From Leuconostoc mesenteroides subsp. mesenteroides ATCC 8293 (lineage in GTDB: Bacteria; Bacillota; Bacilli; Lactobacillales; Lactobacillaceae), in assembly GCF_000014445.1 (NCBI RefSeq), contig NC_008531.1:1085001-1149000 (forward strand): 64,000 nt of DNA, written 5' to 3'. The notes beneath the pieces were generated by a model, which was not told the origin of the DNA, searched no databases, and saw nothing but the letters and a program-made list of their open reading frames with translations. The position numbers were made by a program, and so were the translations under genes. Positions 18,612 through 37,668 of the stretch are shown here, in pieces. How positions within the stretch are numbered: the stretch's first letter is position 1; each line of letters opens with the position of its first letter.

Positions 18612-18662
18612 CTCAGGAAAAACCATTTACTTTTATGAGGTTATTTAAAAGGTTGGTATATT
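18612..18662 (+). promoter_or_regulatory. transfer-operon promoter, copy 1 of 3
   Basis: Conserved CTCAGGAAAAACCATTTAC followed by TTTTATGA (18612-18638), then exactly 18 nt and the -10 TATATT (18657-18662). The same layout recurs at 30671 and 37618. There is no proper -35, so an activator binding the conserved block is likely (inference). Confidence 0.75.
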
Positions 18663-18694
18663 GACCCTATATTAAACAAAAAGGGAGCTACAAA

Positions 18695-18961
18695 ATGGCT
18701 AAAAAAACGATTGACCAACAAATTAAAGAAAAGCAAACACGTTTGGATGAACTAGATTTACAGGCAAAAGCAATTCAAGACGAAAAGCGCGCGATTAAAA
18801 AAGACATCAAACAACTTAATGATTCCCTGGTGGCTGAATTGGGAAGGTCACTGTTAGCCAAAATGAATTTGGAAACAGATGACATTGACCAGGCATTTGC
18901 TGAATTGAATCACTTGCCAATTGACAAACAAGTTGGAGGACAAGCCCATGGCGATCAGTAA
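18695..18961 (+). CDS. small coiled-coil protein, first gene of transfer operon A
   Basis: 88 residues. Residues 1-45 (MAKKTIDQQIKEKQTRLDEL...) form a strongly predicted coiled coil, and the C-terminal half has ETDDIDQAFAELNHLP. The RBS is AAAGGGAG. It overlaps the next gene by 14 nt. Small coiled-coil proteins at the head of Gram-positive transfer operons are often accessory DNA-transfer factors, but I cannot assign a family. Confidence 0.75.
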   Translation: MAKKTIDQQIKEKQTRLDELDLQAKAIQDEKRAIKKDIKQLNDSLVAELGRSLLAKMNLETDDIDQAFAELNHLPIDKQVGGQAHGDQ

Positions 18962-21215
18962 GGAAGAACGTTCGCAACTCAAGCTGTTACCAATTCGTGG
19001 CTATTGCGATTGGAAGGGTATTCCATACACGACGGACACTCCCACTGAGTTACGTATGGTTGATCATGACAGTTTAGTTGTTAGAACAAAATTAAACCGC
19101 TTTGTCTGGAACTCAACTGGCGTTAAAGGTGACTTGGTTGATTTCATTCACTACTACGAATTAGGCAAATCAGACGGGGACAGTAAAGGTGCCGCTATTA
19201 AAAATCAACTGGCCTACGCGCGCTTTGTCAAAGGTGAAAATATTGATGTCTCTAAACTTTATGAAGACAGCACGCCTCGTTACAAGTTTGATTATGATAA
19301 AGTCTTCAAAACCCAGGAAACAAACGTGGCTAAAGATTATTTAGTTAATCAACGCAAGCTCAATCCACAGTTCGTTGACAATTTATTGAAAAGTGGCGCA
19401 GTGGTGCAAGGTAGCCGTTACCGTGAAGGTGATAAGCTGCATCAAAACCCCGTCATCTTCCCCTGGAAGGATGTGAATGGCAAAATTGTGGGCGCTGATC
19501 GTCAAGGGACTGAACAAGACTTTGAACATTACAAAAAACGTGGCACATCCAAAAAAATCTTTGCTGGCAGTGGTACCTCAACGGGATATAACCTCTCATT
19601 TGGATCAGGCGACAAAACATTAATTTTATTTGAAAGTCCAATTGACTTATTGAGTTATGCGCAACAAAATCATCAAGATATGGTGAAAAGTAACGCCACA
19701 CTATTGTCTGTGTCTGGTACTGATGCCAAACGTGGCTTGCAATATTTGAATGATGCGGTTGCTGCCAAGCGAGCCAAATTCAATAAGATTATTGTGGCTT
19801 TTGACAACGATGTCGCAGGGTTTAAAGCCGCTGATTACTTTGATCGTTTTAGTTTTAAAAATCCAATTACTGGTGAAGCGATTGAAGCAGGGCGTCATAT
19901 TCCCTTACAAGGCAAAGATTGGAACGAACAATTGAAAGCAGGTGTTACAGGGCGGCGCGTTATGAGTATGACGGATAATGCTAATCGCTTAGATGCCTTA
20001 GAAAAACTTGCAGTGCAAGAGACACAAACAGGCAAACCAGATTATGTGGATGTCAAAATGAGTACCATTCAACCTGTTAAGCCAGCAGTTGACGAAAAAA
20101 CACCTAAAAAGAGTAAAGAACGTCGTTCCAAAGCTGATCGTCGTAAGGAAAATGCTTTGAAGAATAAGCAGATAATTCAAGAGGCAATGGGAAAGGTGGC
20201 CAAGTACCAACAAGATCCCGCTGAACTTAAAAAGCTCCTTGACTTTACCGCGACTGGCTTAAATTATTCGGCTCGTAATTCAATGTTGATTCAACTACAA
20301 AATCCAAAAGCCACCTTGTTAAAAGGCTACAAACAATGGTCTGCTGATGGCATTCAAGTCAATAAAGGTGAGAAGGGCATCAAAATATTTGGTGCCCCAA
20401 CAAACTTAAAGACGATTATTGCTGAAAATGGCGAAAAAATACGCTGGTCTGATGCAACGCCAGAGCAAAAGCAATTAGCTAATAACAAGCAATTGGAAGT
20501 CCGCAGTGTGAAACATTATCCAGTCGAAACGGTGTTTGATGTTCGGCAAACTAATGCCACTGCTGCGCAGTTGCCCAGCATGCTACCCAATCGTCCCATT
20601 GACTTAGCAACGGATAAAAGCCCAAAACATTTGGATGCGGCCTATAAAACGTTGTTGAAGTTCGCCGACAAACTTAAAGTGCCCGTCATTGACCAAGGTG
20701 TAGATGAACAAATTGCCAAGCGGCCAATGACCTGGCAGGGACAAGCAAAAGGGGCCTTTGTTCAATCAAAAACCAATAAGGATGAAAAATATATCCTATT
20801 GCGCAGTGATCTTACCCCAACCGATAAAATCCACACCTTAGCATACGAAATAGCGCACGCGCAGCTTCATTCTTTGCAGAGTCAAAATAATTGGCCCACA
20901 GCCATTAAAGAAACGCAGGCAGAGTTATCCAGCTATGTGATTACTAAAAACCTAGGCATTGAGCCTGGTGAGAAAAGCGTTGATTATATTGCGGGTTGGT
21001 CGAAGAATTTAAAGGCGCTAGAGGGTCAAAATACTGGCAAAATCATTAGTCAAGCACTCAAAGCTAGTACGGATGTTACTCAGTATCTATCGGATAACTT
21101 GAGCAACGGTGAAGTCCGTCAACCAAAAACAACAAAATTGCTTAAGCCTGATAAGTTAGCGGTTGTTGAACAAAACTATCAGGCCATTAATCAAACAAGT
21201 ACACGACACATGTAA
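18948..21215 (+). CDS. LtrC-like Toprim/ArdC protein of the conjugation region
   Basis: 755 residues, start ATG 18948 behind GGAGG. Residues 8-80 resemble the DUF3991 zinc-ribbon-like primase N-terminus. A Toprim domain follows, with Glu229 (LFESPID) and Asp286/Asp288 (AFDNDVAG). A basic linker leads to an ArdC-like ssDNA-binding domain (about 410-490, NYSARNSMLIQLQNP), and an ImmA/IrrE-like region follows (about 600-690). The metallopeptidase motif reads LAYEIAHAQLH: Tyr633 replaces the first His of HExxH, so protease activity is doubtful. Likely role: protecting or priming the single strand during transfer (inference from the LtrC/ArdC families). Confidence 0.8.
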   Translation: MAISKEERSQLKLLPIRGYCDWKGIPYTTDTPTELRMVDHDSLVVRTKLNRFVWNSTGVKGDLVDFIHYYELGKSDGDSKGAAIKNQLAYARFVKGENIDVSKLYEDSTPRYKFDYDKVFKTQETNVAKDYLVNQRKLNPQFVDNLLKSGAVVQGSRYREGDKLHQNPVIFPWKDVNGKIVGADRQGTEQDFEHYKKRGTSKKIFAGSGTSTGYNLSFGSGDKTLILFESPIDLLSYAQQNHQDMVKSNATLLSVSGTDAKRGLQYLNDAVAAKRAKFNKIIVAFDNDVAGFKAADYFDRFSFKNPITGEAIEAGRHIPLQGKDWNEQLKAGVTGRRVMSMTDNANRLDALEKLAVQETQTGKPDYVDVKMSTIQPVKPAVDEKTPKKSKERRSKADRRKENALKNKQIIQEAMGKVAKYQQDPAELKKLLDFTATGLNYSARNSMLIQLQNPKATLLKGYKQWSADGIQVNKGEKGIKIFGAPTNLKTIIAENGEKIRWSDATPEQKQLANNKQLEVRSVKHYPVETVFDVRQTNATAAQLPSMLPNRPIDLATDKSPKHLDAAYKTLLKFADKLKVPVIDQGVDEQIAKRPMTWQGQAKGAFVQSKTNKDEKYILLRSDLTPTDKIHTLAYEIAHAQLHSLQSQNNWPTAIKETQAELSSYVITKNLGIEPGEKSVDYIAGWSKNLKALEGQNTGKIISQALKASTDVTQYLSDNLSNGEVRQPKTTKLLKPDKLAVVEQNYQAINQTSTRHM

Positions 21216-21228
21216 AAGGAGCAAACAC

Positions 21229-21711
21229 ATGTCACAAGAAAACATTCAAGAAGTTACAGGCTTTATCACAGGCATTACAAAGTCTGCGGAAGTTAATATT
21301 TTATCCTTCCAGGAAAAGGGTCAACCAGGTGCCATTGCATTGACAATTGAAACCAGACGCTACCACGAATTATTCCCAGCAGGCGATCCAATTTTAGGCA
21401 TTGAAATGGTGGCCGTATTACAACAAGTTGGCAAGAAACTACAAGTGGTGTCAATTTATGATCCCGAAGGTGATTGTATTGCCGCTGATGAAGTGCCAGA
21501 ACTTGGCCTATTGAATCATCAATTAGATGATGTCAAAAACACTGATGTCTACACAAGTTTACCCGCTGATCGTCAAAAAGCAGTTGATCACATTGATGCG
21601 AGTACAAGCGAATTAGAAGAATTAGCCAGAGAACATGATGCTGCCAATCAAGTCCCTGAAAGCAATACGAATTATGGTGATCCCGTCACCGACCAGGGAG
21701 GGAATGAATGA
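21229..21711 (+). CDS. conjugation-region hypothetical protein
   Basis: 160 residues, soluble and acidic. The N-terminal two-thirds (ENIQEVTGFITGITKSAEVNIL...) looks like a small beta-rich, possibly OB-like fold; the C-terminal third is charged and probably disordered. Start ATG 21229 behind AAAGGAG; overlaps the AAA+ gene by 4 nt (ATGA). An OB-type single-strand-binding role is possible but not shown. Confidence 0.7.
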   Translation: MSQENIQEVTGFITGITKSAEVNILSFQEKGQPGAIALTIETRRYHELFPAGDPILGIEMVAVLQQVGKKLQVVSIYDPEGDCIAADEVPELGLLNHQLDDVKNTDVYTSLPADRQKAVDHIDASTSELEELAREHDAANQVPESNTNYGDPVTDQGGNE

Positions 21712-23606
21712 TTGAATTAAAACAAAACAATACCACACCTTACCTTGATCGCTATACAACAGACATTAGCGCCAAAGTGATGTCTGCTCCAGAAAAATAT
21801 CATGCCTACGAACGTGAAAGCATTACACGTCGTATCATGGTCTCTCTGATGAAACAAATTCAAAATGCGCCTTTATTAGTTGGGTTACCTGGCGTTGGTA
21901 AAACAGCTATTGTAGAGGATTTGGCACGTCAATTGTTAAGTACCTCAGTTTCTTCCCTCAAAGGCAAGCACTTAGTTCAAATTAGTTTGGCCAACTTGAT
22001 GAAAAGCAGCGATGGTGAGTCATTTGCGCATAAGTTTCAAGCGATTATTGATGAATTGATTGCTAATAAAGATACTGTGATTGCTTTTATTGATGAAATT
22101 CATCAAATTGTTGGCACTGGTGCTGAAACATCAGGTAGTTCATTGGATGCGGGTAATATTATTAAACCAGCCCTGAGTCGTGATGATCTCCAAATTATTG
22201 GGGCGACGACTACGAAAGAATTTCACGAATATGTGGCGCGTGATGGTGCACTGATGCGGCGATTTGATTTGATTGAAGTGCCAGAATTAAGCTTTGAACA
22301 AACGAAAAACGTTTTATCTAAAGTCGCCTTACAACTCAATAACGGTATTGAAGTGCCAGAAACAGTACAAGACAGAATTATGGCACTATCACAACGCTAT
22401 ATCACTGACCGTTACTTTCCTGAAAAGGCAATTATGTTGCTGGATGGTGCGTTAAGTGTAGCACGCCTAGATAATCGACCAACACTGTCAAATCAAGACG
22501 TAGCTACGATTATCCATGATGATTATCATGTGCCTGAATATGTCATTAATCAAACGACTGATGAACGATTATTGAACTTGTTACCAAGACTCAAAAGCCA
22601 GGTGATTGGTCAAGACACAGCCTTAGAAAAAGTTGCGATGAAACTGACTAATCGTGAGGCAGGACTAGCCGACACTTCAAAGCCTGAGTCATTTCTCTTT
22701 ATGGGTCCAACTGGTGTTGGTAAAACTGAGACAGCTAAGCAACTAGCGCTAAATCTATTTGGTAATAAACAGAACTTTATTCGATTTGATATGTCTGAGT
22801 TCAAGTTTGCAGGGACTAGCCTAGAAAGATTTAAAGATCAGCTCACAACTAGAGTCAGGCACACACCTTACGCCGTATTATTGTTGGATGAAATTGAAAA
22901 GGCTGATCCAGAAGTCATGGATTTACTTTTGCAGGTCTTAGATGATGGTCGTTTGAGTGATGAATATGGTCGTGTCATTAATTTTAAAGACTTAATCATT
23001 GTCATGACAACTAACTCAGGGGCAACAGCAGTGATGAATCGTGATGCCAAATCAGATGCTGTTAAAGAAGACAAAAAGCGTCAAGCAAACTTTGAAGAAC
23101 AACTCGAAATTGCCTTGCAAAGTGATGGTTACCGTCCTGAGTTTATCGCTAGAATTGGTGCCATTATTGTCTTTGATGTCTTAAAGATGGCGGATATGGT
23201 GCGAATTGTTGAATTGAAGTTGTCACGACTCAATCAAAAAGCACAAGAGAGTGGTTTCAATATTGTTTTTGACACACAAGAGGTGGCACGCTATATCCCA
23301 TCATTTGACCTGGGCTTTGAGTATCTAAATGGTACACAGGAAGTCAGCTCACCAATTGCCAACTACATCGCAGACGTTGGTTATAAACCGTCTCGAGGAG
23401 TCAGACCAATTGATGACACGATTGCTACGTATGTGAGTGATCCAGTGTCTGCCGCAATTATCCAAAAGCGACAAGGACTAGGACAGGACTTTGATACTTT
23501 CATCTTTAGAGCCATTGGTAATCCACCATCTTTGACAAGTCCTTATGGTGAATGGCAAGTCGTGGTTTCCACAGCTAAGGAGGCAGCAGACAATGAAGCT
23601 ATTTAA
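21708..23606 (+). CDS. Clp-type double AAA+ ATPase in the transfer operon
   Basis: 632 residues with two AAA+ modules as in ClpA/ClpB/ClpC: Walker A1 GLPGVGKT (about 62-69), Walker B1 AFIDEIHQ (about 126-133), Walker A2 GPTGVGKT (about 332-339), Walker B2 LLLDEIEKA (about 392-400), sensor MTTNSG, and a C-terminal ClpB-D2 small domain. The Clp N-domain and any obvious long middle coiled coil are missing. Such proteins unfold or remodel substrates. It overlaps the VirD4/TrsK-like gene by 14 nt, so the two are translated together and may act on the same complex (inference). Confidence 0.85.
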   Translation: MIELKQNNTTPYLDRYTTDISAKVMSAPEKYHAYERESITRRIMVSLMKQIQNAPLLVGLPGVGKTAIVEDLARQLLSTSVSSLKGKHLVQISLANLMKSSDGESFAHKFQAIIDELIANKDTVIAFIDEIHQIVGTGAETSGSSLDAGNIIKPALSRDDLQIIGATTTKEFHEYVARDGALMRRFDLIEVPELSFEQTKNVLSKVALQLNNGIEVPETVQDRIMALSQRYITDRYFPEKAIMLLDGALSVARLDNRPTLSNQDVATIIHDDYHVPEYVINQTTDERLLNLLPRLKSQVIGQDTALEKVAMKLTNREAGLADTSKPESFLFMGPTGVGKTETAKQLALNLFGNKQNFIRFDMSEFKFAGTSLERFKDQLTTRVRHTPYAVLLLDEIEKADPEVMDLLLQVLDDGRLSDEYGRVINFKDLIIVMTTNSGATAVMNRDAKSDAVKEDKKRQANFEEQLEIALQSDGYRPEFIARIGAIIVFDVLKMADMVRIVELKLSRLNQKAQESGFNIVFDTQEVARYIPSFDLGFEYLNGTQEVSSPIANYIADVGYKPSRGVRPIDDTIATYVSDPVSAAIIQKRQGLGQDFDTFIFRAIGNPPSLTSPYGEWQVVVSTAKEAADNEAI

Positions 23607-26600
23607 AAAAGATTATCGTGCCGAAAGACAATTCATGCGCGAAAGTTACATTCGTTGGCGTGGTCGTCCCTGGTTCTTGTGGTTGTATGGCATTATAGCA
23701 ACTATTGGTGTGATATTTATATCGCTTTACGTCACGATTATTGTTGACTTGTTAATAAGAGTGGTTGGCCCATATATTCAAGCCTTCAAGTTTTATATGC
23801 AAAGTGGTGTTGCTCATTGGCCTGAATTCAATGATGTCATGAACATGACCGCGACTGTGCTCAATCCACTCAATATTTTCACTATTCTGTCTCGACTAAC
23901 TTTAGTGACAAGCATTGTACTAATCCTTTGCTTGTTACTCCTACTCAAAAAATATGTCTTCCAACGCATCTATGACTGGTATCAATTGTTTAGAGACCAA
24001 ACGCGTAATACTAACCGTTTTGCGGAAGTCCGTGAAGTGGATAAGGTTTACAAATTGATTCCTGATCGCAATAAGAATTTTAAGGGTCACCCAGGACAAC
24101 CAGTGCTGCACACACAAGGATACACCTTCGAATTCTTTATGATTCATCCGTTCCTGTGGGCGTGGCAATGGTTTAAGCGGCCACTAGGTATGAATTCACT
24201 AGAATTTAGCGGGGTGTACAAAAAAATACGTCCCGTTTTACTGGAACGTTTGCCAAAGCTATTTGAAAAGCAACTGAATGTTCAAGGCGGTTTTGATGGT
24301 TTTTATTGGGTGGATACCAGTAACACCCATTCAAAGACAACTGGGATGACGCGTTCTTCAAAAGACCAAATGCGAGGCTATACCTTAATTGACATCATTT
24401 GTCGTGCCGAAATCAAATGGAACATTATTGATACTGATGCCAAAAACGAAGATGCCAAAATGAGTTACAAGTCATTACGCACAGCAGGTTATGACGTGAA
24501 ATTACTCAATATCATGGAGCCAAGTGAGTCTGAGTCCTGGAATCCTCTTGAAATTGCGATTGATTATGCCTTTGATGGGGATTGGGACAGTGCCAATACG
24601 GAATTGCGTAAGGTTGTACAAGTCATTGGTGGATCAAGTGGTGAAGAAAGTAGTCACAAAGATATTTGGGATAGTGCCGCTGAAAGTACCATCCAGGCAG
24701 TCATGCTCACGGTGCTAGATATTTCTGTACGTCACCAGGACAAATCAATGGTGACCATCTCAAACGTCCTGCAATTCATCAATGATATGAACAAGTTCAC
24801 GGATAAAGAAGGTGATGGCTTAACTAAGTACATTACTAACATTGGTAAACTACCGCGAACACCAGCGCGCAATATGATTATTCTAAACGCCGCTGAGTAC
24901 CTATCTGCCACAGGGGATACCAAATCATCAATTTCTTTCTCAGTTATGAATCGTTTGAATTTGTTTGCCTCAGAGTCAATCACACGTTTGACAACCTTCA
25001 ACACTATCAATTTGACCGATTTAGGGTTTCCAAGAATGCTAAAGATTAAGTTCTCTGCCTGTTATAAAGGCGTCCATGTGAGCATTCATGTTTATGAATC
25101 AGGTAAAAAGCATGCAATAGAAAAGGACAAGCTAACTGTGTCCCAATCAGGCACGCTAACTTATCCGATTCATAACCATTTACCCGTCTCATGGCAAATT
25201 GAGTTGTCACTCGATAATGATGGCAATTCAATTGCGATGCGTAAACAGTCGTTTACGTTGACTGGTAAGATTGTACAACGAAAATTACTCAATGGCAAGA
25301 TTAAGCGTGACTTGTTTTCTAAGCAGCCTGTCATCCAATGCCTGGTTGATCAGATTAAACCACAAGGCACTACTGAGACACCAGGTGTCAACTTGCGTTA
25401 CTCAGAAAATCCAATGGCAGTCTTCATCATCACGCCACAATCTAACGATGATTTTTCCGCTTTGGCCAGCTTGTTTATCTCACAAGTTTTCTCAGTCAAT
25501 ACGGACATTGCATCAACGATTACCCGCAGGAAAATGGACAGTTGGATACTTTATAAGCTCAATGAGTTTTCTATGTTCCCACGTATTCCAGGCTTCACCA
25601 ACATTCTAACGCGTGGTTTAACCTATGGGCATTTGGTTGATTTGTATATTCAAACCTTAACACAACCACGATTGCATTATTCTGAAATGGAAACCAATGA
25701 CATCAATGGTAACACGGGTAACTGGTTCCACATTTTAACTAATGATGAGCAAACGAATGAAGCCTTATCCAAGCAATTAGGTGAGGTTGAAGTCCAAACC
25801 GAATCAGTCAATTCACAGATTGGGTTAGATCGTCAAGATCGTGGTAATCGCCATGCACAAGTTAGCAAGGTTCGGCTGTTGGATGCCAAAGAAATTAGTG
25901 AATTGAGTCCTCGTGAAATGATTACCATCCGTACGATCAAACGTGCTGATAAGAAGGGGCGTTCTGTTCGCCCTTTGCCAATTTTCTCTACGGGTGCTTA
26001 CCGAATGCCGTTTGCCTATGAATTATTGGGTAAGCAGTATTCACTTGATTACTATACGGCAGACTTGAACATCAAAGCGCAGCATAACGATTTGAAATAT
26101 GATGACCTCTATCATGACTTTGTGCCTTACTTTGATGAACTTGATCAACAAGTCCAACTAGAAATTGAGGAAGACGGCGCAAGTGGCAATCAAATTGATA
26201 ATCGTCAAATCAATACGTTAGCTGATGATGAAATCAACAACATTTTGGCCAAAGCGCATCAAGGTATCGAAACAGCCACAGTGCAAACACAACAAGAACT
26301 CTCTGATGAGGAACGTTACTTAAAGTGGAAACATGACTTTAACCCTGATGAGCCTTTTATGACCGAAGAACAACTAGACAATGTTGAGCTACGTCAAATT
26401 GTAGAGAAATCCATCAAAATGAGGATACCACGCTCAAATAAGACCGAAGAACAAAACAGTGCCGTTGCTTACTTAAATCGTGGCAAATATTTGACACTTT
26501 CTGGCAACAACAATAACGGTAAAGTTCTAAGATTACTAAACAACGAACCCGCATACATGTGGGAAATTTATAAGCAGCTCAACGCTGCAACAATTCAAGG

Positions 26601-26613
26601 AGAAGTCGAATGA
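23593..26613 (+). CDS. VirD4/TrsK-like coupling protein with degenerate Walker motifs
   Basis: 1006 residues, start ATG 23593 (AAGGAGG). Two N-terminal membrane regions (about 20-55 and 95-118) precede a TraG/TrsK-like core: ESWNPLEIAIDYAFDGDWD, AVFIITPQSNDDFSALASLF and the C-terminal GRG/TGNWFHILTNDEQTNEALSKQLG block all follow coupling proteins. The P-loop reads SNTHSKTT (about 243-250), with Ser in place of the Gly of GKT, and Walker B reads LNEF (Asn657-Glu658) rather than DEF. About residues 475-580 hold an inserted beta-rich domain. It would link relaxosome and secretion channel; ATP use is questionable. Confidence 0.8.
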   Translation: MKLFKKDYRAERQFMRESYIRWRGRPWFLWLYGIIATIGVIFISLYVTIIVDLLIRVVGPYIQAFKFYMQSGVAHWPEFNDVMNMTATVLNPLNIFTILSRLTLVTSIVLILCLLLLLKKYVFQRIYDWYQLFRDQTRNTNRFAEVREVDKVYKLIPDRNKNFKGHPGQPVLHTQGYTFEFFMIHPFLWAWQWFKRPLGMNSLEFSGVYKKIRPVLLERLPKLFEKQLNVQGGFDGFYWVDTSNTHSKTTGMTRSSKDQMRGYTLIDIICRAEIKWNIIDTDAKNEDAKMSYKSLRTAGYDVKLLNIMEPSESESWNPLEIAIDYAFDGDWDSANTELRKVVQVIGGSSGEESSHKDIWDSAAESTIQAVMLTVLDISVRHQDKSMVTISNVLQFINDMNKFTDKEGDGLTKYITNIGKLPRTPARNMIILNAAEYLSATGDTKSSISFSVMNRLNLFASESITRLTTFNTINLTDLGFPRMLKIKFSACYKGVHVSIHVYESGKKHAIEKDKLTVSQSGTLTYPIHNHLPVSWQIELSLDNDGNSIAMRKQSFTLTGKIVQRKLLNGKIKRDLFSKQPVIQCLVDQIKPQGTTETPGVNLRYSENPMAVFIITPQSNDDFSALASLFISQVFSVNTDIASTITRRKMDSWILYKLNEFSMFPRIPGFTNILTRGLTYGHLVDLYIQTLTQPRLHYSEMETNDINGNTGNWFHILTNDEQTNEALSKQLGEVEVQTESVNSQIGLDRQDRGNRHAQVSKVRLLDAKEISELSPREMITIRTIKRADKKGRSVRPLPIFSTGAYRMPFAYELLGKQYSLDYYTADLNIKAQHNDLKYDDLYHDFVPYFDELDQQVQLEIEEDGASGNQIDNRQINTLADDEINNILAKAHQGIETATVQTQQELSDEERYLKWKHDFNPDEPFMTEEQLDNVELRQIVEKSIKMRIPRSNKTEEQNSAVAYLNRGKYLTLSGNNNNGKVLRLLNNEPAYMWEIYKQLNAATIQGEVE

Positions 26614-28712: not shown

Positions 28713-28774
28713 AACTTTTAATTTGTAGGCTAATACGGTAACATTAACAGTAGTTGATTTTAGGGAGTATACTG

Positions 28775-29290
28775 ATGGAGAAAATTAAGCTAAATAAAAT
28801 TTGGATTACAATTGTGGTGATTGGAATTATCGTTATCGGAATTTTGTTAGCCATGTTGCACCAACAAAAACAAAACAGTCCTGAGGCACAATCATCAAGT
28901 TACGTGTCAAGTGCTAAGGCTTCATCCGTCTCAACCTCGGTTCAAGACAAGAACAATGAAAAAGCCTATGCTAAAAAAGCTGCAAAAATGAGTGGTCACG
29001 TCCTGGAAATAAATGGAAAAGAGTATTTTACATCATGGACAAAAGCCGATTTCCAAAAATGGGCTAACTCCTATATGTCAATGAATTTGGATGATCGGCA
29101 TAAAGATGGTGTGAAGGAAAGCTTTGGCACATCTACCACTATTGAAAATAGCGATACTCAAATGCTATATCCTTTAGATAATTGGGCTAAGGAAATACAA
29201 GATAAGGGAACCCCGTCAAACTACTTTAATACAGTGAAAGAGTTCAATAAACAATACCCAGGTGTTAATCCTGATGATATAAAGAAATAG
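28775..29290 (+). CDS. membrane-anchored extracytoplasmic protein
   Basis: 171 residues, start ATG 28775 behind AGGGAG. One N-terminal helix (about residues 8-29) is followed by a Ser/Gln-rich linker and a soluble domain containing MSGHVLEINGKEYFTSWTKADFQKW. No lipobox Cys. The family is unrecognised. It ends transfer operon A and is closed by a bidirectional terminator; an envelope-side accessory role in transfer is likely from position. Confidence 0.65.
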   Translation: MEKIKLNKIWITIVVIGIIVIGILLAMLHQQKQNSPEAQSSSYVSSAKASSVSTSVQDKNNEKAYAKKAAKMSGHVLEINGKEYFTSWTKADFQKWANSYMSMNLDDRHKDGVKESFGTSTTIENSDTQMLYPLDNWAKEIQDKGTPSNYFNTVKEFNKQYPGVNPDDIKK

Positions 29291-29345: not shown

Positions 29346-29627
29346 TTATTTTGATTGATTTAAGACTTGTTCTAATACTAGATCTACAAAGGCACTTGAT
29401 GAGCGGAATCCTTGTTTGGTTGCTAATTTCTCAATGCCTTGTTTTATTTCAGGGCGAATGGTGTAAGTCGTTTGTATTTTACGACTACTATGATTTGAAG
29501 AAGGTAGTTTGAATCCGTCTCCTAGCGATACCTCTGATTGTGGTTCGTCTCGACTAAAGGCATCTGCCATTTGTTTTTGAGCGCTGGCTTCATCAAACAT
29601 ACGGGAGTCTTTTTTATCGTAATCCAT
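29346..29627 (-). CDS. ribbon-helix-helix partner of ParA
   Basis: 93 residues. The N-terminal half is disordered and charged; the C-terminal 45 residues (RKIQTTYTIRPEIKQGIEKLATKQGFRSSSAFVDLVLEQVL) show the beta-strand plus two helices of ribbon-helix-helix DNA-binding proteins. This is the usual centromere-binding partner in type Ib plasmid partition, encoded directly after parA with a 1-nt TAATG overlap. It probably binds the AT-rich repeats upstream of parA and also represses the operon (family knowledge). Confidence 0.8.
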   Translation of the reverse strand: MDYDKKDSRMFDEASAQKQMADAFSRDEPQSEVSLGDGFKLPSSNHSSRKIQTTYTIRPEIKQGIEKLATKQGFRSSSAFVDLVLEQVLNQSK

Positions 29628-30406
29628 TATTTCACACTTTCTAATAGCTTTTGATAAGCATCATAAATTTGCTGCAGGGTTTTCGGGTTGCGCTTGGCTT
29701 GTTCTAAATCAAACACTGGGGTTTTAAGCATGGTTGAACTATTAAACACTTCACGCTCATTTAAGACAGCGACAAGGTTTTCAATTTGGTCAATAAGTTG
29801 CCCAAACTCATGACTTGAACGGGTATTATGCTTTACACGATTTGCAAGGTACAAAACTTTCGCTTCAATCAGTGATTCGCGTGTTCTAATATCAACGGCA
29901 TCATCACGGAACTCTTTCATCCGTAAATCAAATTGTTGTTTTGATTGAATAAAACCATACTCTGAGGGTTCTAGTGGCACCACAACATAATCAGAAACGG
30001 CAATCATATTCTTCGTTAACGTTCCGAATTCTGGATGGGTGTCAATTAGAATATAGTCATAATCTTTGATTTCCTCAAGGTGATCTTGAAGCCACATCAT
30101 CATCAAAAAGTTTTTATTATTCTTTGATTGTAATGTACCTTCTAATTCGTCTAAATGAGGGCTAGCAGGTAACAAACCTAATTGTGGGGTAATTTGTCTA
30201 ATTTGGGCTAAACCGCCTGTAAAGACGTCATATAGCGTATTTTTATTAGTATAGCTTTCATAGGTAGAGGACAAGTTACCTTGATAGTCTGAATCAATTA
30301 ACAAAACCTTGTAGCCTTGTCGAACCAGAAAACTTGCAAAGTTAAATGTCATCGTTGTTTTACCAACGCCACCTTTAGATGCTGAAAATGTAATTGTTTT
30401 ACTCAT
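29627..30406 (-). CDS. parA: ParA-family partition ATPase
   Basis: 259 residues. The deviant Walker A KGGVGKTT occupies residues 11-18; Walker A' VLLIDSDYQGN and Walker B YILIDTHPEF follow. There is no N-terminal helix-turn-helix domain, so it is a type Ib ParA/Soj-like protein. It would move plasmid copies apart over the nucleoid together with the small RHH protein encoded next. Its presence is the clearest sign that this region is, or was, a low-copy plasmid. RBS AAGGAG precedes ATG 30406. Confidence 0.9.
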   Translation of the reverse strand: MSKTITFSASKGGVGKTTMTFNFASFLVRQGYKVLLIDSDYQGNLSSTYESYTNKNTLYDVFTGGLAQIRQITPQLGLLPASPHLDELEGTLQSKNNKNFLMMMWLQDHLEEIKDYDYILIDTHPEFGTLTKNMIAVSDYVVVPLEPSEYGFIQSKQQFDLRMKEFRDDAVDIRTRESLIEAKVLYLANRVKHNTRSSHEFGQLIDQIENLVAVLNEREVFNSSTMLKTPVFDLEQAKRNPKTLQQIYDAYQKLLESVK

Positions 30407-30640: not shown

Positions 30641-30666
30641 CTCCTGTTCGTGCAGGGGCTTTTTCT
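30641..30666 (+). terminator. weak terminator before transfer operon B
   Basis: CTCCTG / CAGGGG with a 6-nt loop, then GCTTTTTC. It lies just before the second copy of the transfer promoter motif. Confidence 0.5.
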
Positions 30667-30670
30667 TTGG

Positions 30671-30721
30671 CTCAGGAAAAACCATTTACCTTTATGACAT
30701 TCTTTCGATACCTTGTACACT
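30671..30721 (+). promoter_or_regulatory. transfer-operon promoter, copy 2 of 3
   Basis: CTCAGGAAAAACCATTTACC plus TTTATGA (30671-30697), then 18 nt and the -10 TACACT (30716-30721). Spacing is identical to the copies at 18612 and 37618. Confidence 0.75.
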
Positions 30722-30776: not shown

Positions 30777-31106
30777 ATGTATGAACACTTTACCCCTGGA
30801 CGCAATATTTGGAAGAAAGTGTCACGGTGGATGTTTTTCACGATGGAACGAATCTTCGTATTAGTCATTGTTTTTGGGATTACTTACCTGATGATTAAAT
30901 CATTCTATCCCTACAATATTGGCAAGTATGGGCTGATTCTAATTGTCAGTAATGCGTTACTAGCTGGCTTTTTAATTTTACCTAGTCCAAGTAACCCAAT
31001 GGGTCTCATGTATCAAGAAATCCTACGTGGCATCTTAAAGTCCAGCAAGCACGCCACAGGTGATCTAACTGCGATTACTGAAAACAAGAAACGAGAGGAA
31101 AAATAA
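30777..31106 (+). CDS. DUF5592/VirB3-like membrane protein
   Basis: 109 residues with two membrane helices (about 25-45 and 53-71: VLVIVFGITYLMI, LILIVSNALLAGFLIL). The gene order, just before a TrsD-like and a VirB4-like gene, and the PxxPxNP-type loop match the short VirB3/PrgI-type inner-membrane components (DUF5592 in lactobacilli). RBS AAAGGAG. Stop and next start overlap (TAATG). Confidence 0.65.
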   Translation: MYEHFTPGRNIWKKVSRWMFFTMERIFVLVIVFGITYLMIKSFYPYNIGKYGLILIVSNALLAGFLILPSPSNPMGLMYQEILRGILKSSKHATGDLTAITENKKREEK

Positions 31107-31759
31107 TGGGAATAAAAGCTAAACAAGCACAAAAGGGAAAGGGTTTAACAGTTGTCAAACAAGCACTTGATAATCGCAAACCAATTCCAATCTACTTTGC
31201 TTTACCTTATAAAGACATTTTGAATAAAAAAGGGCATCCAATTTTATTGGCAGATGATACATACGCTGACATGCTCAATTTACCTGGAAAAGATTTGGAT
31301 TTCCTGAATGCTGAAGGCGATAAGAGTTCCAACGCCATTATCGCTGACTTTCACCAGTTGCTATCAGTTTACGTGGAGGACTTTGATATTTTCATTAGTC
31401 AACTACCCGCTGACACGCGAATCCAGCAAGCTTCATGGGGACAAGAGTTAGTGAGAGTGGAAAGCCAATTGAATAGTGTTGACCTAGATGATCGTCATTA
31501 TCAACAATTGTTAATGATGCGCCAAACTATTTTGCAAGAAATTAATATTGAAAAAAATGTGGTCGGTGACATTAAACATCAAGAATATACCGCTGTGATC
31601 TATGGCAAGACGTTAGCTGCCTTAGATAAAAATCGCCGTGACTTTATGGCACACGCAGGCATGGCGTTTACACCTGAGCCAGTCTCAATTAATCGTAAAA
31701 AGATGGTCATGTACCAAATTAACAATCCTGGGGAAACCTTAGAACTGGAGGAAAAATAA
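31106..31759 (+). CDS. TrsD/TraD-like conjugation protein
   Basis: 217 residues, soluble, no membrane segment, mostly helical. By size and position (between the VirB3-like and VirB4 genes) it corresponds to TrsD of staphylococcal pGO1/pSK41-type systems, whose biochemical role is unknown. A central segment (RVESQLNSVDLDDRHYQQLLMMRQTILQEI) is a probable coiled coil. The next gene begins 2 nt after its stop. Confidence 0.65.
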   Translation: MGIKAKQAQKGKGLTVVKQALDNRKPIPIYFALPYKDILNKKGHPILLADDTYADMLNLPGKDLDFLNAEGDKSSNAIIADFHQLLSVYVEDFDIFISQLPADTRIQQASWGQELVRVESQLNSVDLDDRHYQQLLMMRQTILQEINIEKNVVGDIKHQEYTAVIYGKTLAALDKNRRDFMAHAGMAFTPEPVSINRKKMVMYQINNPGETLELEEK

Positions 31760-31761
31760 GC

Positions 31762-33717
31762 ATGCGCACAAGTTTAAATACAGCAAAACGTTCCGCATTG
31801 AAAGCACGCGGCTATAATTTAGAACTCATTGAGGAAGTTCAAAACCCTAGTGGCATTGAATTTCATACCACTTACTTTGATGATGGTATGGCAAGTAGTG
31901 CCATTGTCAATGTCTATGACTATCCCAAGAATGAACAGTTACAAGGCTGGTTCAAAGAGTTAATCAATCACAAGAACACCATTGTAGACATCAAGATTGG
32001 GACTGAGAACAAGTTTGAAGTGCAAAAAGCACTTGAGACAGCTACTAACACGTTGCGTAGTAAGGCACGTAGTGAAGTGACCTCACAAGGTGACGCGTTG
32101 GAAGCCGAACAAGATGCTGACATTACACTCCAAGACTTGAATGAAGCCCGCAATGGTCGTGAAATTTACAAACGTGTCTACGTTAGATTATTGATATCAG
32201 ATGTTTCTCCAGAAGAATTACGTCGTCGTGTTAAAGAAATTCAACAACAGCTTTCTAACTACCGCATGAAAGTTTATCCTTCTGAGCAATTAACCCACTT
32301 CCAACAGTTCTTTATGCCAGCAATGTCAATTGAAAATCAAACGATTAAGGACAAAGGGTTCCCAATGAAAGCCTATGCTTTAGCTGGTTCTTATGCCTTT
32401 AATCAAACCTTTATTGCACATCCTCGTGGTTCATACATGGGCTTAACCATGCAACGTGGTGAAGTTATGTATGATCCTAGCTACAATGACCACCGAACAC
32501 AGTTAACCGCTTATAACCTAGTTGTGGGTGGAGAGCGCTCAGGTAAAAGCTCGTTTGCCAAAAAGAACTTGGGGCCATTAGTTTCTCGCGGTGATACAGT
32601 TTGGGTATTTGATAAGTCTAATGAATGGCGTGATCTAGTGAATTACTATTACGGTGTCACTCTGACGCTTGATGGTAGTCAAAACATCATTAATTTGATG
32701 CAAGTGTTTGGCACTGTCCTTGATGCAAATGGCAATGTTGATGTCATTGCAAGTTTCAACCAGCATCGTACAAAAGTGATTACGTACTACGCGACACTTA
32801 ATCCACAAGCCGACAAGAAAGAATTAGAAATGTTGGGTAACCTAATTACTGATTTCTATGTTGAACGGCGTATGTGGTCATTGTCACCAAAAGACAACCC
32901 GCAAGATTTACGTGTAATCGGGCTACGAAATGAAGCCTATCCAATTCTCGAAGATTTTCAAACCTTCCTAGAAACCCGTAACATGCTGACGCGCAACATG
33001 ACACAGCCTGCCGTAGAACGTTTGGATAACATCTTATCGACAATTAGCAGCTTAATACAAAATCATGGCGACATGGTTAATGGTGTAACGACCATGCCTG
33101 ATCTGTCTGGTGAGCGTTTGATTCGTTTTGATACTAGCGGTCTTTCAAGATTTGAAGATGATCTCTACAACGCGCAATATTTTACCATTTTGTCTTTGAT
33201 GGAAAGCTACATCACGATTAATGGAACACAACAACGTGAGCGCATTAAGCGTGGTGAAGTTTCAACTCAGGCCAACGACAATGGTAATCCACCAAAATAC
33301 TTCTGGTGGATACAGGATGAAGCGGATGATATTTTCAATGCTAAACATTCATTAGGCATAACCTTTGGCGATAACATGATGGCACAACATGGTAAAGATT
33401 TTTTCGGGATGTTTGCTATCTTCCCAGGACTCAAAAACGTTGTGCCAACGGGTAATGCCTCAGACACTGAGGCTAGTCGTGCCGCATCTTCCTTCTTCGG
33501 CCGATTCCCAAAGCAAACGATTGGACGTCTATCAAAAACGGATACAACCCGTTTACGTAGTGTGGTGAGTGAAACTAATATCACTGATGGTCAACTACAA
33601 GCGTTACAAGGATTGGATCAAGGTGATTTCTTAATGAACTTGGTGGGTAAGCAAGCTACGTTCATGCACGTTGATCTTAATGACTCAGAAATTAATTTGT
33701 TTGGTGGAGGACTGTAA
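31762..33717 (+). CDS. VirB4/TrsE-like conjugation ATPase
   Basis: 651 residues. Walker A GGERSGKSS lies at about residues 256-264 and Walker B FWWIQDEADD at about 515-523; the N-terminal domain (1-200) is of the VirB4/CagE type. It is the universal ATPase of type IV secretion, powering assembly and substrate transfer at the inner membrane. Unlike the coupling protein of this element, both nucleotide motifs are intact. The ribosome site GGAGG overlaps the end of the TrsD-like gene. A 64-residue membrane protein starts 1 nt after its stop. Confidence 0.9.
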   Translation: MRTSLNTAKRSALKARGYNLELIEEVQNPSGIEFHTTYFDDGMASSAIVNVYDYPKNEQLQGWFKELINHKNTIVDIKIGTENKFEVQKALETATNTLRSKARSEVTSQGDALEAEQDADITLQDLNEARNGREIYKRVYVRLLISDVSPEELRRRVKEIQQQLSNYRMKVYPSEQLTHFQQFFMPAMSIENQTIKDKGFPMKAYALAGSYAFNQTFIAHPRGSYMGLTMQRGEVMYDPSYNDHRTQLTAYNLVVGGERSGKSSFAKKNLGPLVSRGDTVWVFDKSNEWRDLVNYYYGVTLTLDGSQNIINLMQVFGTVLDANGNVDVIASFNQHRTKVITYYATLNPQADKKELEMLGNLITDFYVERRMWSLSPKDNPQDLRVIGLRNEAYPILEDFQTFLETRNMLTRNMTQPAVERLDNILSTISSLIQNHGDMVNGVTTMPDLSGERLIRFDTSGLSRFEDDLYNAQYFTILSLMESYITINGTQQRERIKRGEVSTQANDNGNPPKYFWWIQDEADDIFNAKHSLGITFGDNMMAQHGKDFFGMFAIFPGLKNVVPTGNASDTEASRAASSFFGRFPKQTIGRLSKTDTTRLRSVVSETNITDGQLQALQGLDQGDFLMNLVGKQATFMHVDLNDSEINLFGGGL

Positions 33718-33718
33718 G

Positions 33719-33913
33719 ATGAAGTTGCCACATCCATTAAAGAAGGCGCGTGATAACCGTGAAAAAATGAAACAAGAGGCGCAACAAATCGTTGAAAACT
33801 ATGACAAAGGTCAAAAGCCTCAACCAGTGGATAACAAAATTATTTGGTATGTCATTGGTGGTTTTGTTTTTGTTTTTATTCTCAAAGGCCTCAGCCTTTT
33901 AATGGGAGGTTAG
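33719..33913 (+). CDS. small single-helix membrane protein of transfer operon B
   Basis: 64 residues. A basic N-terminal half (MKLPHPLKKARDNREKMK) precedes one C-terminal membrane helix (about 41-60). It starts 1 nt after the VirB4 stop and ends 3 nt before the VirB1-like gene, so it is clearly part of the operon. No family recognised; a small channel accessory is the simplest view. Confidence 0.75.
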   Translation: MKLPHPLKKARDNREKMKQEAQQIVENYDKGQKPQPVDNKIIWYVIGGFVFVFILKGLSLLMGG

Positions 33914-33916
33914 ACC

Positions 33917-35167
33917 ATGTTAGAACGTTGGATGCAAGATAAAAAGCGTCGCTTGTATGTCATCATCGGCATCATCACTACAGCAATTCTGTCAATATCA
34001 GTTATTGCCTTAATGTGTGTCATGGTCTTTTCAACACAGAATGCCAATTGTTGGAATGATGATACAACCATTGATGATGGTGGCACTTCAATCGGTGGCG
34101 ATTGGAAAGATCCCAACTCAGCAACGCACAAAGCCATACAACATGCAATTGACCGTTTTCATAAAGAAATTAAAATGTCAGGCGACAATATCGCTGCTGC
34201 AATTGCGATTGGTCTTAGAGAAAGTGGCTTTAATTCGAAAGCCGTCAATCCGGCTGGCTCGGTAAAAGGCATTTGGCAGTGGGGTGCTGGAGGTATTAAC
34301 GGAAATCGCTATGGTGACACAGCTGATACAGTGCAAGCACAAGTTCAACTGGCAATCAATGAATTGCATAGTAGTCATAAAGCAACTCTAATTGGCTTAG
34401 CGGCCGCTAACAACATTAACAGTTCAATGGTGGCTTGGGATACAAAGTTTGAAGGGGTCGGAGAAAATGATCCACAACGAAAAGTCGCCGACACCGCAAA
34501 AACTGCCGAAGAAGTCAAAAAGGTTTTCAAACTAGATTATGCAGGTGATATTGATGTCTTTGATGGCGGCAACAACGACTCGGGTTCTAGTGATACCTCA
34601 AGCGATGCCAATTCAAGTGCTATGTCTGATGCCTCATGTGACACAGGGTTGGATACCAACACAGATGGCTTACCAGTTAAAGGAAAATACAACATAACAG
34701 GTGGCTATCCAAACTATGCAGGCCTAACAGGCGCAGAACATTATGGTGTCGATTTTCAAACCGTCAACCACACTATGACTGGTGGTGAAAGTAATGTGTA
34801 CGCTGTTCATGATGGCACGGTAGTAGCCAAAAGCTTTGATAGCGTTGGGGGTAATTGGCTAGTGATTAAAGGCACTGACGGGGTGTTTACCTATTACGGT
34901 CACGCACCAACTCAGTCAGCCATTGTTGTCAATACAGGTGATAAGCTTTCTGCTGGTCAACACATTAGTCATGAAGGACAAACTGGTGAAGCAACAGGTA
35001 TTCACGTTCACTTCGCCGTACAAACAAAAGATCAATACAATTGGGCGCCCGAAAGTAAAGGACTAAAATCCCCTGGACTTTATCTCAAGTTACCCGCAAA
35101 GGCAGGTACTAACGTTGTTATTCCTAGTGGGCCATTTGATTCTAGTACAGGCAAAACAGATAAATAG
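33917..35167 (+). CDS. VirB1-like peptidoglycan hydrolase (lysozyme-like + M23)
   Basis: 416 residues. An N-terminal helix (about 13-38) anchors the protein outside. A lysozyme-like/transglycosylase domain follows (about 70-180), with a probable catalytic Glu102 in IGLRESGF and the GIWQWG loop. After a Ser/Asp-rich linker comes an M23 endopeptidase domain (about 255-390), with zinc ligands in EHYGVDF and the HVHF motif. It corresponds to TrsG/TraG-type wall hydrolases that open the murein for the conjugation channel. Confidence 0.88.
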   Translation: MLERWMQDKKRRLYVIIGIITTAILSISVIALMCVMVFSTQNANCWNDDTTIDDGGTSIGGDWKDPNSATHKAIQHAIDRFHKEIKMSGDNIAAAIAIGLRESGFNSKAVNPAGSVKGIWQWGAGGINGNRYGDTADTVQAQVQLAINELHSSHKATLIGLAAANNINSSMVAWDTKFEGVGENDPQRKVADTAKTAEEVKKVFKLDYAGDIDVFDGGNNDSGSSDTSSDANSSAMSDASCDTGLDTNTDGLPVKGKYNITGGYPNYAGLTGAEHYGVDFQTVNHTMTGGESNVYAVHDGTVVAKSFDSVGGNWLVIKGTDGVFTYYGHAPTQSAIVVNTGDKLSAGQHISHEGQTGEATGIHVHFAVQTKDQYNWAPESKGLKSPGLYLKLPAKAGTNVVIPSGPFDSSTGKTDK

Positions 35168-35179
35168 GAGTATTCAAAT

Positions 35180-35605
35180 ATGAATAAATTAAAGAAATGG
35201 GGCATTGCAGTGTTCTCTTTAGCTGTCATTGCGATATTGACTGCGATTGGTGGAACTTATTACTACAACACAGAGGTGAATGGTTATCCAGATACCAAGA
35301 ACTTCGCTGACAAGATTGATCAGTTAGATGGCAGTAGCAAGCAAAAGACAGTCTTAATCTTCCATAAGCCTGGTTGCCCTGACTGTAAGAAAGCGCGTAG
35401 AACGATTAAAAAGACGATCAAGACACATCAAAAGACAATTGATTATGTTGTCATCAACGTCAAGAAGTCTGATGCACAAGCATATCTTGCTAAGTACGGC
35501 GTGACACAAGTACCCACAGTGATTGCTTTAAAAGGTAATCAAGTGATTGACAGTACCAGTTCAAACAACAACAAAACAATTGCCAAAGTGGTCGCAGGAG
35601 ATTAA
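35180..35605 (+). CDS. membrane-anchored thioredoxin-like protein
   Basis: 141 residues. One N-terminal helix (about 8-28) is followed by a thioredoxin fold with HKPGCPDCKK (Cys66, Cys69; a CPDC active site) and the cis-Pro region VTQVPTVIA. It faces outside and could form or isomerise disulfides in secreted transfer proteins. Thioredoxin-like genes occur at this place in pGO1/pSK41-type and lactobacillar transfer regions. RBS AGGAG; the next gene begins 2 nt after it. Confidence 0.85.
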   Translation: MNKLKKWGIAVFSLAVIAILTAIGGTYYYNTEVNGYPDTKNFADKIDQLDGSSKQKTVLIFHKPGCPDCKKARRTIKKTIKTHQKTIDYVVINVKKSDAQAYLAKYGVTQVPTVIALKGNQVIDSTSSNNNKTIAKVVAGD

Positions 35606-35607
35606 CC

Positions 35608-36165
35608 ATGACAAAATTCAATTTAAAATGTGTTTACGCGTTTGTGTTAACGCTTGCTTGCCTGTTTTTAGTCCAGCAAGGACTTAGCTATCAACGCACG
35701 GTCAAGAGTGTGAATATCGTGCATCAAGAAATCAAGGCAACAAAAGCTAAGTCAAATCAGTATAGGGTTCAAGCTAAACAACTTGATAAGGTTAAAACCG
35801 CTGATATTCGAGATATGCAAAACATTCAAAAAATTGGCAATACATTTCTCAATGAAATGTTTGCGATCTTACCAAAGTTAAATAAGTCAGATGCTAAAAG
35901 CAGTGTAGCAACCGATGACGTTGTGTCAGCTTTTCTAGGGGCAACGTTTGGTGGTGATGTGGATGAAGGTGTGCCAACTTTTCATTTAGAAAGCAATGAT
36001 ATTGTCTATTTCAAAGCAGCCGATGGCTCAGGTCTAGGATTTGGGACGGTTAAATATAAATTAGGCAAAGAGGAAACCAGCACAACACTATTGATGCACA
36101 TTGAAAATGGCAAAATTACAGAACTCCAAACGGGTGCTGTAAAAGATACCTCAGGAAGGAAATAA
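35608..36165 (+). CDS. membrane-anchored conjugation protein (TcpC/VirB8-like candidate)
   Basis: 185 residues with a membrane helix at about 7-26, a short coiled coil, then a soluble domain (about 90-180) rich in beta strands (TFHLESNDIVYFKAADGSG...). Size, topology and pairing with a similar downstream gene suggest an NTF2-like VirB8/TcpC-type scaffold, but sequence motifs are too weak to be sure. It is 2 nt from both neighbours. Confidence 0.6.
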   Translation: MTKFNLKCVYAFVLTLACLFLVQQGLSYQRTVKSVNIVHQEIKATKAKSNQYRVQAKQLDKVKTADIRDMQNIQKIGNTFLNEMFAILPKLNKSDAKSSVATDDVVSAFLGATFGGDVDEGVPTFHLESNDIVYFKAADGSGLGFGTVKYKLGKEETSTTLLMHIENGKITELQTGAVKDTSGRK

Positions 36166-36167
36166 CC

Positions 36168-36764
36168 TTGACAAAAGTAAATAAAAAAATAGCCTTATTG
36201 TGGGCTATTCCAGTGTTGATGGTGGCTGCTGGACTGGGTTTTTGGTTAGCTACTCAAGTCGCTGTTAAAATGCATCAAAGTGCATCAAATGAACTAGCCG
36301 TGCAACAAAGCAAACTCATCAACAAGAAATCAAAGATCGGTACGATACTGGATTCAAAGCAACCTAATGTTTCGGCTGCCTCTACTTTGCTTGATAAACT
36401 ATTTACTCTCGATTGGACAATTGCCTCTCAAAAGGAATTTGATGCTAAAGCCAAACAGATGACACCTTATGTGACTCAGGAGGTCGTCAAAAATAGTTTA
36501 GATTTCAAGGCTGATCCCGATAAAATGATTACACAGACAGGTGTGGTAATGACTTATGATCACATGGATTTCTTACCCACCTCAGCAAGTGCCACAGAAG
36601 TGAAGGGGAAGGTAATTGTTTTTGTTAAAAGCCATCTCAAGGACTCGGCAGATGCCACCACACGTTTTGTCTATAATGTCAGCTACAATCCTAAAACAAA
36701 TCTCGTGACACAATTAGACCGCATCGGAACTTATCAATTACAAAGTGACAGCAGTGTGTTGTAG
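36168..36764 (+). CDS. VirB8/TcpC-like membrane-anchored protein
   Basis: 198 residues starting at TTG 36168, chosen because AGGAAGGA lies directly upstream and the frame has no better start. One membrane helix (about 9-31) is followed by a coiled linker and a globular domain (about 65-195) whose pattern (LLDKLFTLDW... and VKGKVIVFVKSHLKDSADATTRFVYNV) suits an NTF2-like VirB8/TcpC fold. It is the last gene of transfer operon B. Confidence 0.6.
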   Translation: MTKVNKKIALLWAIPVLMVAAGLGFWLATQVAVKMHQSASNELAVQQSKLINKKSKIGTILDSKQPNVSAASTLLDKLFTLDWTIASQKEFDAKAKQMTPYVTQEVVKNSLDFKADPDKMITQTGVVMTYDHMDFLPTSASATEVKGKVIVFVKSHLKDSADATTRFVYNVSYNPKTNLVTQLDRIGTYQLQSDSSVL

Positions 36765-36927: not shown

Positions 36928-37551
36928 ATGAATAAATTGTTACTTACTGCTTATGGATTTTCAACACCAAAAATTATAAATGTTGCTCAAAAAATGATTC
37001 AAGAGAATAAAATAACAAAGGCTTGTATTATTTCCACATCTTGGCCAAAAGAAAAACAAAAGCACCCTCAGATGCAACAAATAAAAAGAGATCTCCTCAG
37101 CATGAATATACAGCAAGTAGATTTCTTAGATGTGGAATTTGAAGATGCTAACAAACTCTTTGATTACGACCTAATTTTTCTGAATGGGGGCTATCCATTT
37201 TACCTTTTGCATTTTATCAAAAAAAGTGGTGCTGATCAGATTTTGAAGAAAATAAACCAAAATGGAGGACTTATATTCGGTTTAAGCGCCGGTTCAATTA
37301 TTTTAGGCCCTTCCATAGCTCTGATGCAGTACCTTTATCCAGAAGATAATCAGTTTAATGACTCGAATTTAGATGGCCTTAATTTAACAGATATTCATGT
37401 GTATCCACACTTTAAAGAAATGCTAACCCGCGATCCCACAATAAAAGATAAAATTAATAAATATGAAAATGAAACCGGAATTAACATTACAAGACTTAAT
37501 AACGACCAAGCCTTAGCAGTTAATAACGACACTCAAACTTTTTTGGATTGA
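36928..37551 (+). CDS. peptidase E-like (S51) protein
   Basis: 207 residues. NGGYPFYL and FGLSAGSIILG (nucleophile Ser120) and the later DIHVYPHF (His) form the elbow and active site of the S51/peptidase E and class I glutamine-amidotransferase-like fold. Peptidase E cleaves Asp-X dipeptides, but many relatives have other roles. It has its own promoter (TATAAT about 36863) and a terminator, is more AT-rich than its neighbours, and splits transfer operons B and C, so it is inserted cargo rather than a transfer gene. Confidence 0.8.
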   Translation: MNKLLLTAYGFSTPKIINVAQKMIQENKITKACIISTSWPKEKQKHPQMQQIKRDLLSMNIQQVDFLDVEFEDANKLFDYDLIFLNGGYPFYLLHFIKKSGADQILKKINQNGGLIFGLSAGSIILGPSIALMQYLYPEDNQFNDSNLDGLNLTDIHVYPHFKEMLTRDPTIKDKINKYENETGINITRLNNDQALAVNNDTQTFLD

Positions 37552-37573
37552 GTGTCGTTGAATTATTTTTTGT
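37528..37573 (+). terminator. terminator of the peptidase E gene
   Basis: CGACACTCA / TGAGTGTCG with a 12-nt loop; the left arm lies inside the coding end. A T-run follows. Confidence 0.7.
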
Positions 37574-37585
37574 AAATTAACTAAA

Positions 37586-37611
37586 GCTCATCCCGTTGGA
37601 TGGGCTTTTTT
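37586..37611 (+). terminator. terminator preceding transfer operon C
   Basis: GCTCATCC / GGATGGGC with a 4-nt loop and T6, directly before the third promoter motif. Confidence 0.85.
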
Positions 37612-37617
37612 GTTTGC

Positions 37618-37668
37618 CTCAGGAAAAACCATTTACCTTTATGACAATTTTTTGATTCTTGTTATTCT
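37618..37668 (+). promoter_or_regulatory. transfer-operon promoter, copy 3 of 3
   Basis: CTCAGGAAAAACCATTTACC plus TTTATGA (37618-37644), then 18 nt and the -10 TATTCT (37663-37668). It precedes the pilin-sortase-adhesin operon. Confidence 0.75.

Follow-up and report, generated by a model that had tools for sequence, protein, structure and literature searches.

An element-specific box precedes three transfer operons in Leuconostoc mesenteroides and probably serves their joint control

A 27-nucleotide (nt) box repeated in nearly identical form ahead of three transfer operons was found in a mobile element of Leuconostoc mesenteroides subsp. mesenteroides ATCC 8293 that carries a block of transfer (tra) genes. 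The window analyzed here comprises 64,000 nt of contig NC_008531.1 (assembly GCF_000014445.1, positions 1,085,001 to 1,149,000), and coordinates refer to it unless another contig is named; the operons, termed A, B, and C, are predicted from gene order. We consider it likely (probability about 0.7) that a trans-acting factor common to all three transfer operons acts at the box; joint control of the transfer machinery by a factor specific to the element is probable. This reading is favored because the box is fixed, its distance to the −10 hexamer is constant, the boxes of related elements have been replaced in concert, and one box reappears in a prophage. Judged by position alone, the operons would be driven from the box sites.

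Exact copies of the box occur at 18612–18638 (copy A), 30671–30697 (copy B), and 37618–37644 (copy C), all on the plus strand. Allowing up to three mismatches retrieved only these three sites from the window (shuffle expectation, 0.00) and from the whole 2.08-Mb genome, in which the window sits on a 2.04-Mb contig. In all three copies, 18 nt separate the end of the box from a −10 hexamer on the same strand, namely TATATT at 18657–18662, TACACT at 30716–30721, and TATTCT at 37663–37668, the first and third of which are TGn-extended. An initial annotation of this DNA had described just this motif and spacing, which proved exact in each copy, and had named a genome-wide search as a check; the genome holds the box in no unrelated place. 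When the downstream sequence was shuffled 2000 times per box class and scored with −10 weights of our own, a common −10 offset as good as that of the window box arose in 0/2000 shuffles (p 0.0005). The same annotation had seen no consensus −35 at any site. A perfect TTGACA is indeed missing, but copies B and C overlap at their ends with ATGACA, a 5/6 match placed 16 bp before the −10 (30694–30699 and 37641–37646, plus strand); at copy A, the hexamer at this distance, ATGAGG (18635–18640, plus strand), matches only 3/6. All three boxes sit between a terminator-like hairpin and the −10, ahead of a transfer gene block. The hairpins, again on the plus strand, span 18533–18578 (a 20-pair stem with a T tail), 30641–30658, and 37583–37608; since shuffled sequence gave a mean of 15.7 such sites and the scanned region 24, a lone match is not proof of a terminator.

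The box is present in 7 of the 19 genomes of the genus Leuconostoc, with three copies in each. When 397 family genomes were searched with the 24-nt box core at up to three mismatches, four single three-mismatch matches were the only hits beyond these carriers, and the reversed control gave two. Box and −10 hardly vary among the seven genomes. Over their 21 sites, the numbers of varying box columns are 0 of 27 at A, 2 at B, and 1 at C, and the 45 nt upstream of the box form the most variable part (36, 27, and 18 varying columns, respectively).

Elements of equal gene order and lower identity lack the window's box, with no match of fewer than eight mismatches in 20 stretches, and their upstream regions display other sequences repeated before the same operons. 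A de novo search of 17 elements for 26-nt windows present at three or more distant places, in which positions were not assumed, revealed an element-specific repeat triple upstream of genes A2, B1, and C1 in 11 of 13 elements from Leuconostoc and Weissella. Three of these 11 have one box type in common, and the third copy of G101 extends into a run of N. The species and genus names of the related genomes (L. falkenbergense, L. lactis, L. litchii, L. rapi, and L. citreum; Weissella) are putative assignments, and G000 denotes the window's element. Among four more distant elements, two from two further genera contain repeated boxes (four copies in G128, three plus a shorter fourth in G039), and G373 has a different, palindromic repeat. 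Several elements contain further repeats that do not stand upstream of all three operons together. In pattern searches, the box of the L. rapi element G017 was restricted to its own element (19 genomes), as was that of G128 (5 genomes); the G389-type box turned up in such elements alone, in 3 of 7 Weissella genomes. The viral_contigs set gave 0 matches to the window-box, G229a-type, or G389-type patterns; box searches of INPHARED returned chance-level matches only (best E 0.4); and in PLSDB the operon A promoter region was unmatched, with VirD4 and VirB4 finding only protein relatives of less than 60% identity. Among the open-access PMC articles listed, as represented by their titles and the starts of their abstracts, no paper on this element or its box was found.

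A common exact −10 offset was obtained for 10 of 11 box classes (shuffle p 0.0005–0.0055). Over nine classes (the count omits G128, G039, G101, and G150a), the box is 0.89 identical between the operons of one element (27 comparisons), a value that arises partly by construction because boxes were chosen for repeating, and 0.38 identical when one operon is compared across different elements (108 comparisons). The corresponding identities within and between elements are 0.57 and 0.39 for the spacer and 0.39 and 0.42 for the 30 nt downstream. When G017 is compared with G000, the VirB4-like protein is 96% identical and the 30 nt downstream are 0.73–0.90 identical, with a box identity of 0.44–0.52. 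The sharp contrast lies in the high identity of boxes within an element and in this pair. From the end of the box core to the −10, the distance is 29 nt in G229b (3/3), 28 nt in G365 (3/3), and 39 nt in G128 (4/4); if the cores correspond as we read them, that of G128 would lie one helical turn further upstream.

A box was also discovered on a prophage-like contig of W. oryzae. This fourth site of the genome (contig G229:C25, L176:2423–2452) has 30 nt in common with the box of element G229a and three mismatches to the longer pattern. Its 9,791-bp carrier encodes families of phage transcription regulators (CI- and Cro-like by position), an anti-repressor, and Sak4-like, SSB, primase, and RusA-like proteins, and the box is placed between the Cro-like and anti-repressor genes. 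The 17 nt from the common box to a TATTCT equal the spacing of the G229a boxes; the spacer sequence is unrelated, and the second hairpin arm is lost. In this one case from one genome, the box and its spacing stand outside the tra genes. The copy points to conjugation and prophage induction being directly linked, an idea testable within one strain.

Additional copies were observed near other genes of three elements. The fourth copy of G128 (G128:C1 44280–44300, minus strand) stands ahead of a gene encoding a SpaA (pilin-like) domain. A copy in G039 (G039:C4, around 31016) is followed by a 118-amino acid (aa) gene without a family match and then by a tyrosine integrase; if the box does serve the integrase, it would couple excision or integration to transfer. 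In G398, a 17-nt fourth copy on the minus strand (L156:466) lies ahead of a leading-region gene whose family is found in seven other Weissella elements.

We propose that each site forms a composite promoter, in which a terminator-like hairpin would be followed by an element-specific box of about 20–27 nt ending at or overlapping a weak −35, by 16–18 bp, and by a σA-type −10 that is often extended. A trans-acting DNA-binding factor, presumably a protein encoded by the element, would read the box and control all three transfer operons jointly, with transcription expected to start at these sites, and the terminators would cut off read-through from neighboring genes. An activator appears somewhat more probable than a repressor, because of the position of the box, upstream of the −35, and because the one-turn shift in G128 would be expected of an activator contacting polymerase. 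Such an activator may touch RNA polymerase in a class II-like manner, the GC core of the box lying at about −42. As the specificity of the factor changes between related elements, the boxes of each element would change together and constitute a private code.

The most probable rival is a repressor, which we regard as less likely than an activator. Here, an element-encoded repressor would use the box as a common operator and silence the three operons until a signal arrives, as is the case in other conjugative plasmids of Gram-positive bacteria. The ATGACA of two window promoters, the TTGTCA of all three G229a promoters, and the TTTACA (19-bp spacing) of the G259a and G389 types suggest promoters able to fire unaided, and PMC10873654 describes relaxases and repressors of the lactococcal plasmids pNP40 and pUC11B that bind conjugation promoters near the −35/−10. 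The boxes considered here, however, lie upstream of the −35 or just touch it rather than covering the −35/−10 region, and the box of G128 is a full turn further away. Furthermore, the best −35 hexamers at 16–19 bp in G229b, G365, and G398 reach 3/6, 3/6, and 4/6, respectively.

Other explanations are far less probable. A ribbon-helix-helix (RHH) protein encoded beside ParA (29346–29627) could act in the manner of omega or ParG; it sits between operons A and B and is the sole tra-block protein with a recognized DNA-binding fold, which was read from an alignment and is without a family match. What makes this assignment very unlikely is that three Leuconostoc elements whose boxes are unrelated encode a nearly unchanged DNA-contacting strand, and so do four Weissella elements with differing boxes. 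Neither the RHH protein (P2) nor ParA has a match in the stretches of G389 (45,000 bp) and G150b (30,885 bp), both of which keep the triple box, or in the stretches L085, L087, and L088. The initial annotation had noted no regulator gene beside the operons, which holds for helix-turn-helix proteins; the RHH gene does adjoin them, though the evidence disfavors it as the factor. It had also offered an alternative sigma factor next to a common activator. A dedicated sigma factor reading the box as its −35 would fit the fixed distance to the −10, but it is slightly less probable than even the RHH protein: the −10s are of the σA type, near-consensus −35s are present, a box of 20–27 nt is long for a −35, and no sigma domain was detected in the scanned element proteins, save for sub-cut-off sigma-region-4 matches in 316-aa IS30 transposases. 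Of that pair of proposals, the shared trans-acting factor is retained on the grounds given at the outset, and the sigma factor is unlikely. Least probable of all is that the repeats are terminators or the target of a guide RNA instead of a protein site. Terminator-like hairpins adjoin the boxes and, by our reading, are contained in those of G229a and G101, yet conservation of the hairpin does not extend across classes; the prophage copy, which keeps box and spacing without the second arm, argues against a terminator. A guide RNA would require a further partial copy that recurs at the same location, and contiguous exact matching in 14 elements gave none.

Several results weigh against a dedicated factor at the box, in addition to the selection of boxes by repetition. 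With a good −35, two of the three promoters in the window could fire independently of an activator. In the seven Leuconostoc genomes, the box is not better kept than what follows it at B and C: of the 30 columns after the −10, only one varies at these two operons, as does 1 of 18 in the C spacer. Over all classes, the box is about as divergent as the 30 nt downstream (0.38 and 0.42). The −10 test was not significant for G039 (p 0.14), the distant element G380 gave no triple, and in G150a box A is of one type and boxes B and C are of another. Among the scanned element proteins (Pfam and NCBIfam; very short open reading frames (ORFs) were not all scanned), no helix-turn-helix regulator or response regulator was found, and a sliding-window comparison of elements having the same or different boxes revealed no tra-block protein with a clear specificity switch tracking the box. 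Finally, the ClpB-like AAA+ protein passes the Pfam cut-off for sigma-54-activator ATPases (26.0 vs 20.2 bits). We take this match to be a cross-hit; its score is far below those of the Clp/AAA matches.

If the common factor that we favor is encoded by the element, its specificity determinant would lie in or near the tra block. This is suggested by two W. oryzae elements in one genome, because their tra blocks and boxes differ and their flanks are alike, with identities of 93.1% over 3,107 bp and 94.1% over 3,252 bp (to the end of the fetched sequence). The leading-region genes (15934–17148, minus strand) are a less likely source of specificity, given that their W. oryzae counterparts fall in the 93.1% identical flank despite the different boxes. 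The four corresponding leading-region proteins of that pair are 78–97% identical, the lowest adjoining the tra block, and G229a has one extra gene near the tra block. Structure models of two fast-evolving cytoplasmic proteins, A1 and A3 of operon A, yielded no candidate; that of A1 consists of one long and one short helix (predicted local distance difference test (pLDDT) score, 75.9), and that of A3 is weak (pLDDT 64.1). By profile, A1 was found in G398 and not in G128, G039, G380, or G373, so it may not be universal. The mosaic element G150a provides a natural test of where specificity is encoded. It mostly aligns to G259b at 88–97%, with one 311-bp piece at 78%, and in sliding identity it departs in stretches of VirD4, A7, and VirB4. 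The factor could be an unassigned protein, the product of an uncalled short ORF, or a product encoded elsewhere.

In the vir regulon of the Ti plasmid, a vir box just upstream of several transfer operon promoters is read by VirG. Like this system, the element places one and the same box at a set position ahead of several transfer operons, but it differs in that no response regulator was found among its scanned proteins (very short ORFs not all included) and in that the box is private to each element, with quick turnover. The omega-type RHH proteins of pSM19035 are global regulators; a ParA-linked RHH-like gene is present here as well, but unlike in the omega/ParG regulon, its recognition strand does not follow the box change. 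With pLS20, the element has in common a membrane protein of the pLS20_p028 family and terminators as part of the design. PMC8955417 describes a main pLS20 promoter, Pc, for an operon of more than 30 kb, whose internal terminators are read through by conAn antitermination, whereas the element displays three promoter-like regions, each behind a terminator-like hairpin, with one box in common. A pLS20-type operon has a conAn1 protein and a conAn2 RNA at its start; Rfam matches in the window are limited to the two near 12 kb described below. Several conjugation promoters in lactic acid bacteria are also described for pNP40 and pUC11B, which have three and five, respectively, under repressors and relaxases; the available portion of PMC10873654 mentions no shared element-specific box for these plasmids. 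In the accessible descriptions of the Gram-positive systems compared, conjugation genes are presented as one or a few repressed operons.

Element-private boxes that change together would offer a transfer regulon a natural code for its specificity, and food bacteria already contain several versions that could be exchanged. A broader proposal can be offered only tentatively, the odds being somewhat against its holding in full: a family of conjugative elements in Leuconostoc, Weissella, and at least two further genera would run its transfer operons, and once apparently an integrase gene and once a SpaA-type pilin-like gene, from element-private boxes that are swapped together as the specificity of the factor changes, so that co-resident elements would be orthogonal, and a resident prophage would have captured a box ahead of its anti-repressor gene, wiring its induction to activation of the element.

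The genes of the transfer blocks were assigned by domain scans and synteny. Predicted operon A (18695–29290, plus strand; Pfam, NCBIfam, and synteny) encodes, in order, the small coiled-coil protein A1, a Toprim/ArdC primase-like protein, A3, the ClpB-like AAA+ protein, a VirD4 coupling protein (above the Pfam cut-off), the pLS20_p028-family membrane protein (above the NCBIfam cut-off), and A7. The divergent RHH-like gene and ParA, the latter recognized by Pfam, occupy 29346–30406 on the minus strand between operons A and B. Predicted operon B (30777–36764, plus strand) encodes B1, B2, the VirB4-like ATPase B3, B4, the lysozyme/M23 hydrolase B5, the thioredoxin-like B6, B7, and B8; the NCBIfam VirB4 model matches B3 below its cut-off, and plasmid relatives are annotated as conjugal transfer ATPases. 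A peptidase S51 gene (36928–37551) follows operon B, before the terminator-like hairpin and box C. Predicted operon C (37714–43233, plus strand; synteny) encodes C1 and C2, both without a domain, a sortase-like protein that narrowly misses the Pfam cut-off, and an adhesin of the antigen I/II type whose domains exceed it. By these matches, the element carries a full-looking set that includes VirB4-like and VirD4-like type IV secretion ATPases. No relaxase or tyrosine/serine integrase family was matched by Pfam or NCBIfam among the proteins scanned at 11660–46330, the stretch over which the DNA of related elements aligns to the window.

The only two Rfam matches of the window fall near 12 kb, at the left end of the element (11841–12180), with rli28 on the plus strand and RatA, just above its cut-off, on the minus strand; they possibly mark a type I toxin-antitoxin locus. 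Two nearly identical 316-aa IS30-type transposases (43812–44762 and 46936–47886) enclose a different IS30-type gene (44808–45941), a 93% identical copy of which stands beside the element in G010, G013, and G018. A flanking gene at 60378–61139 suggests a common chromosomal neighborhood: its distance to box C is approximately 11–13 kb in G010 and G013, and 54 kb in G018. The gene also occurs in G001, a genome without the box.

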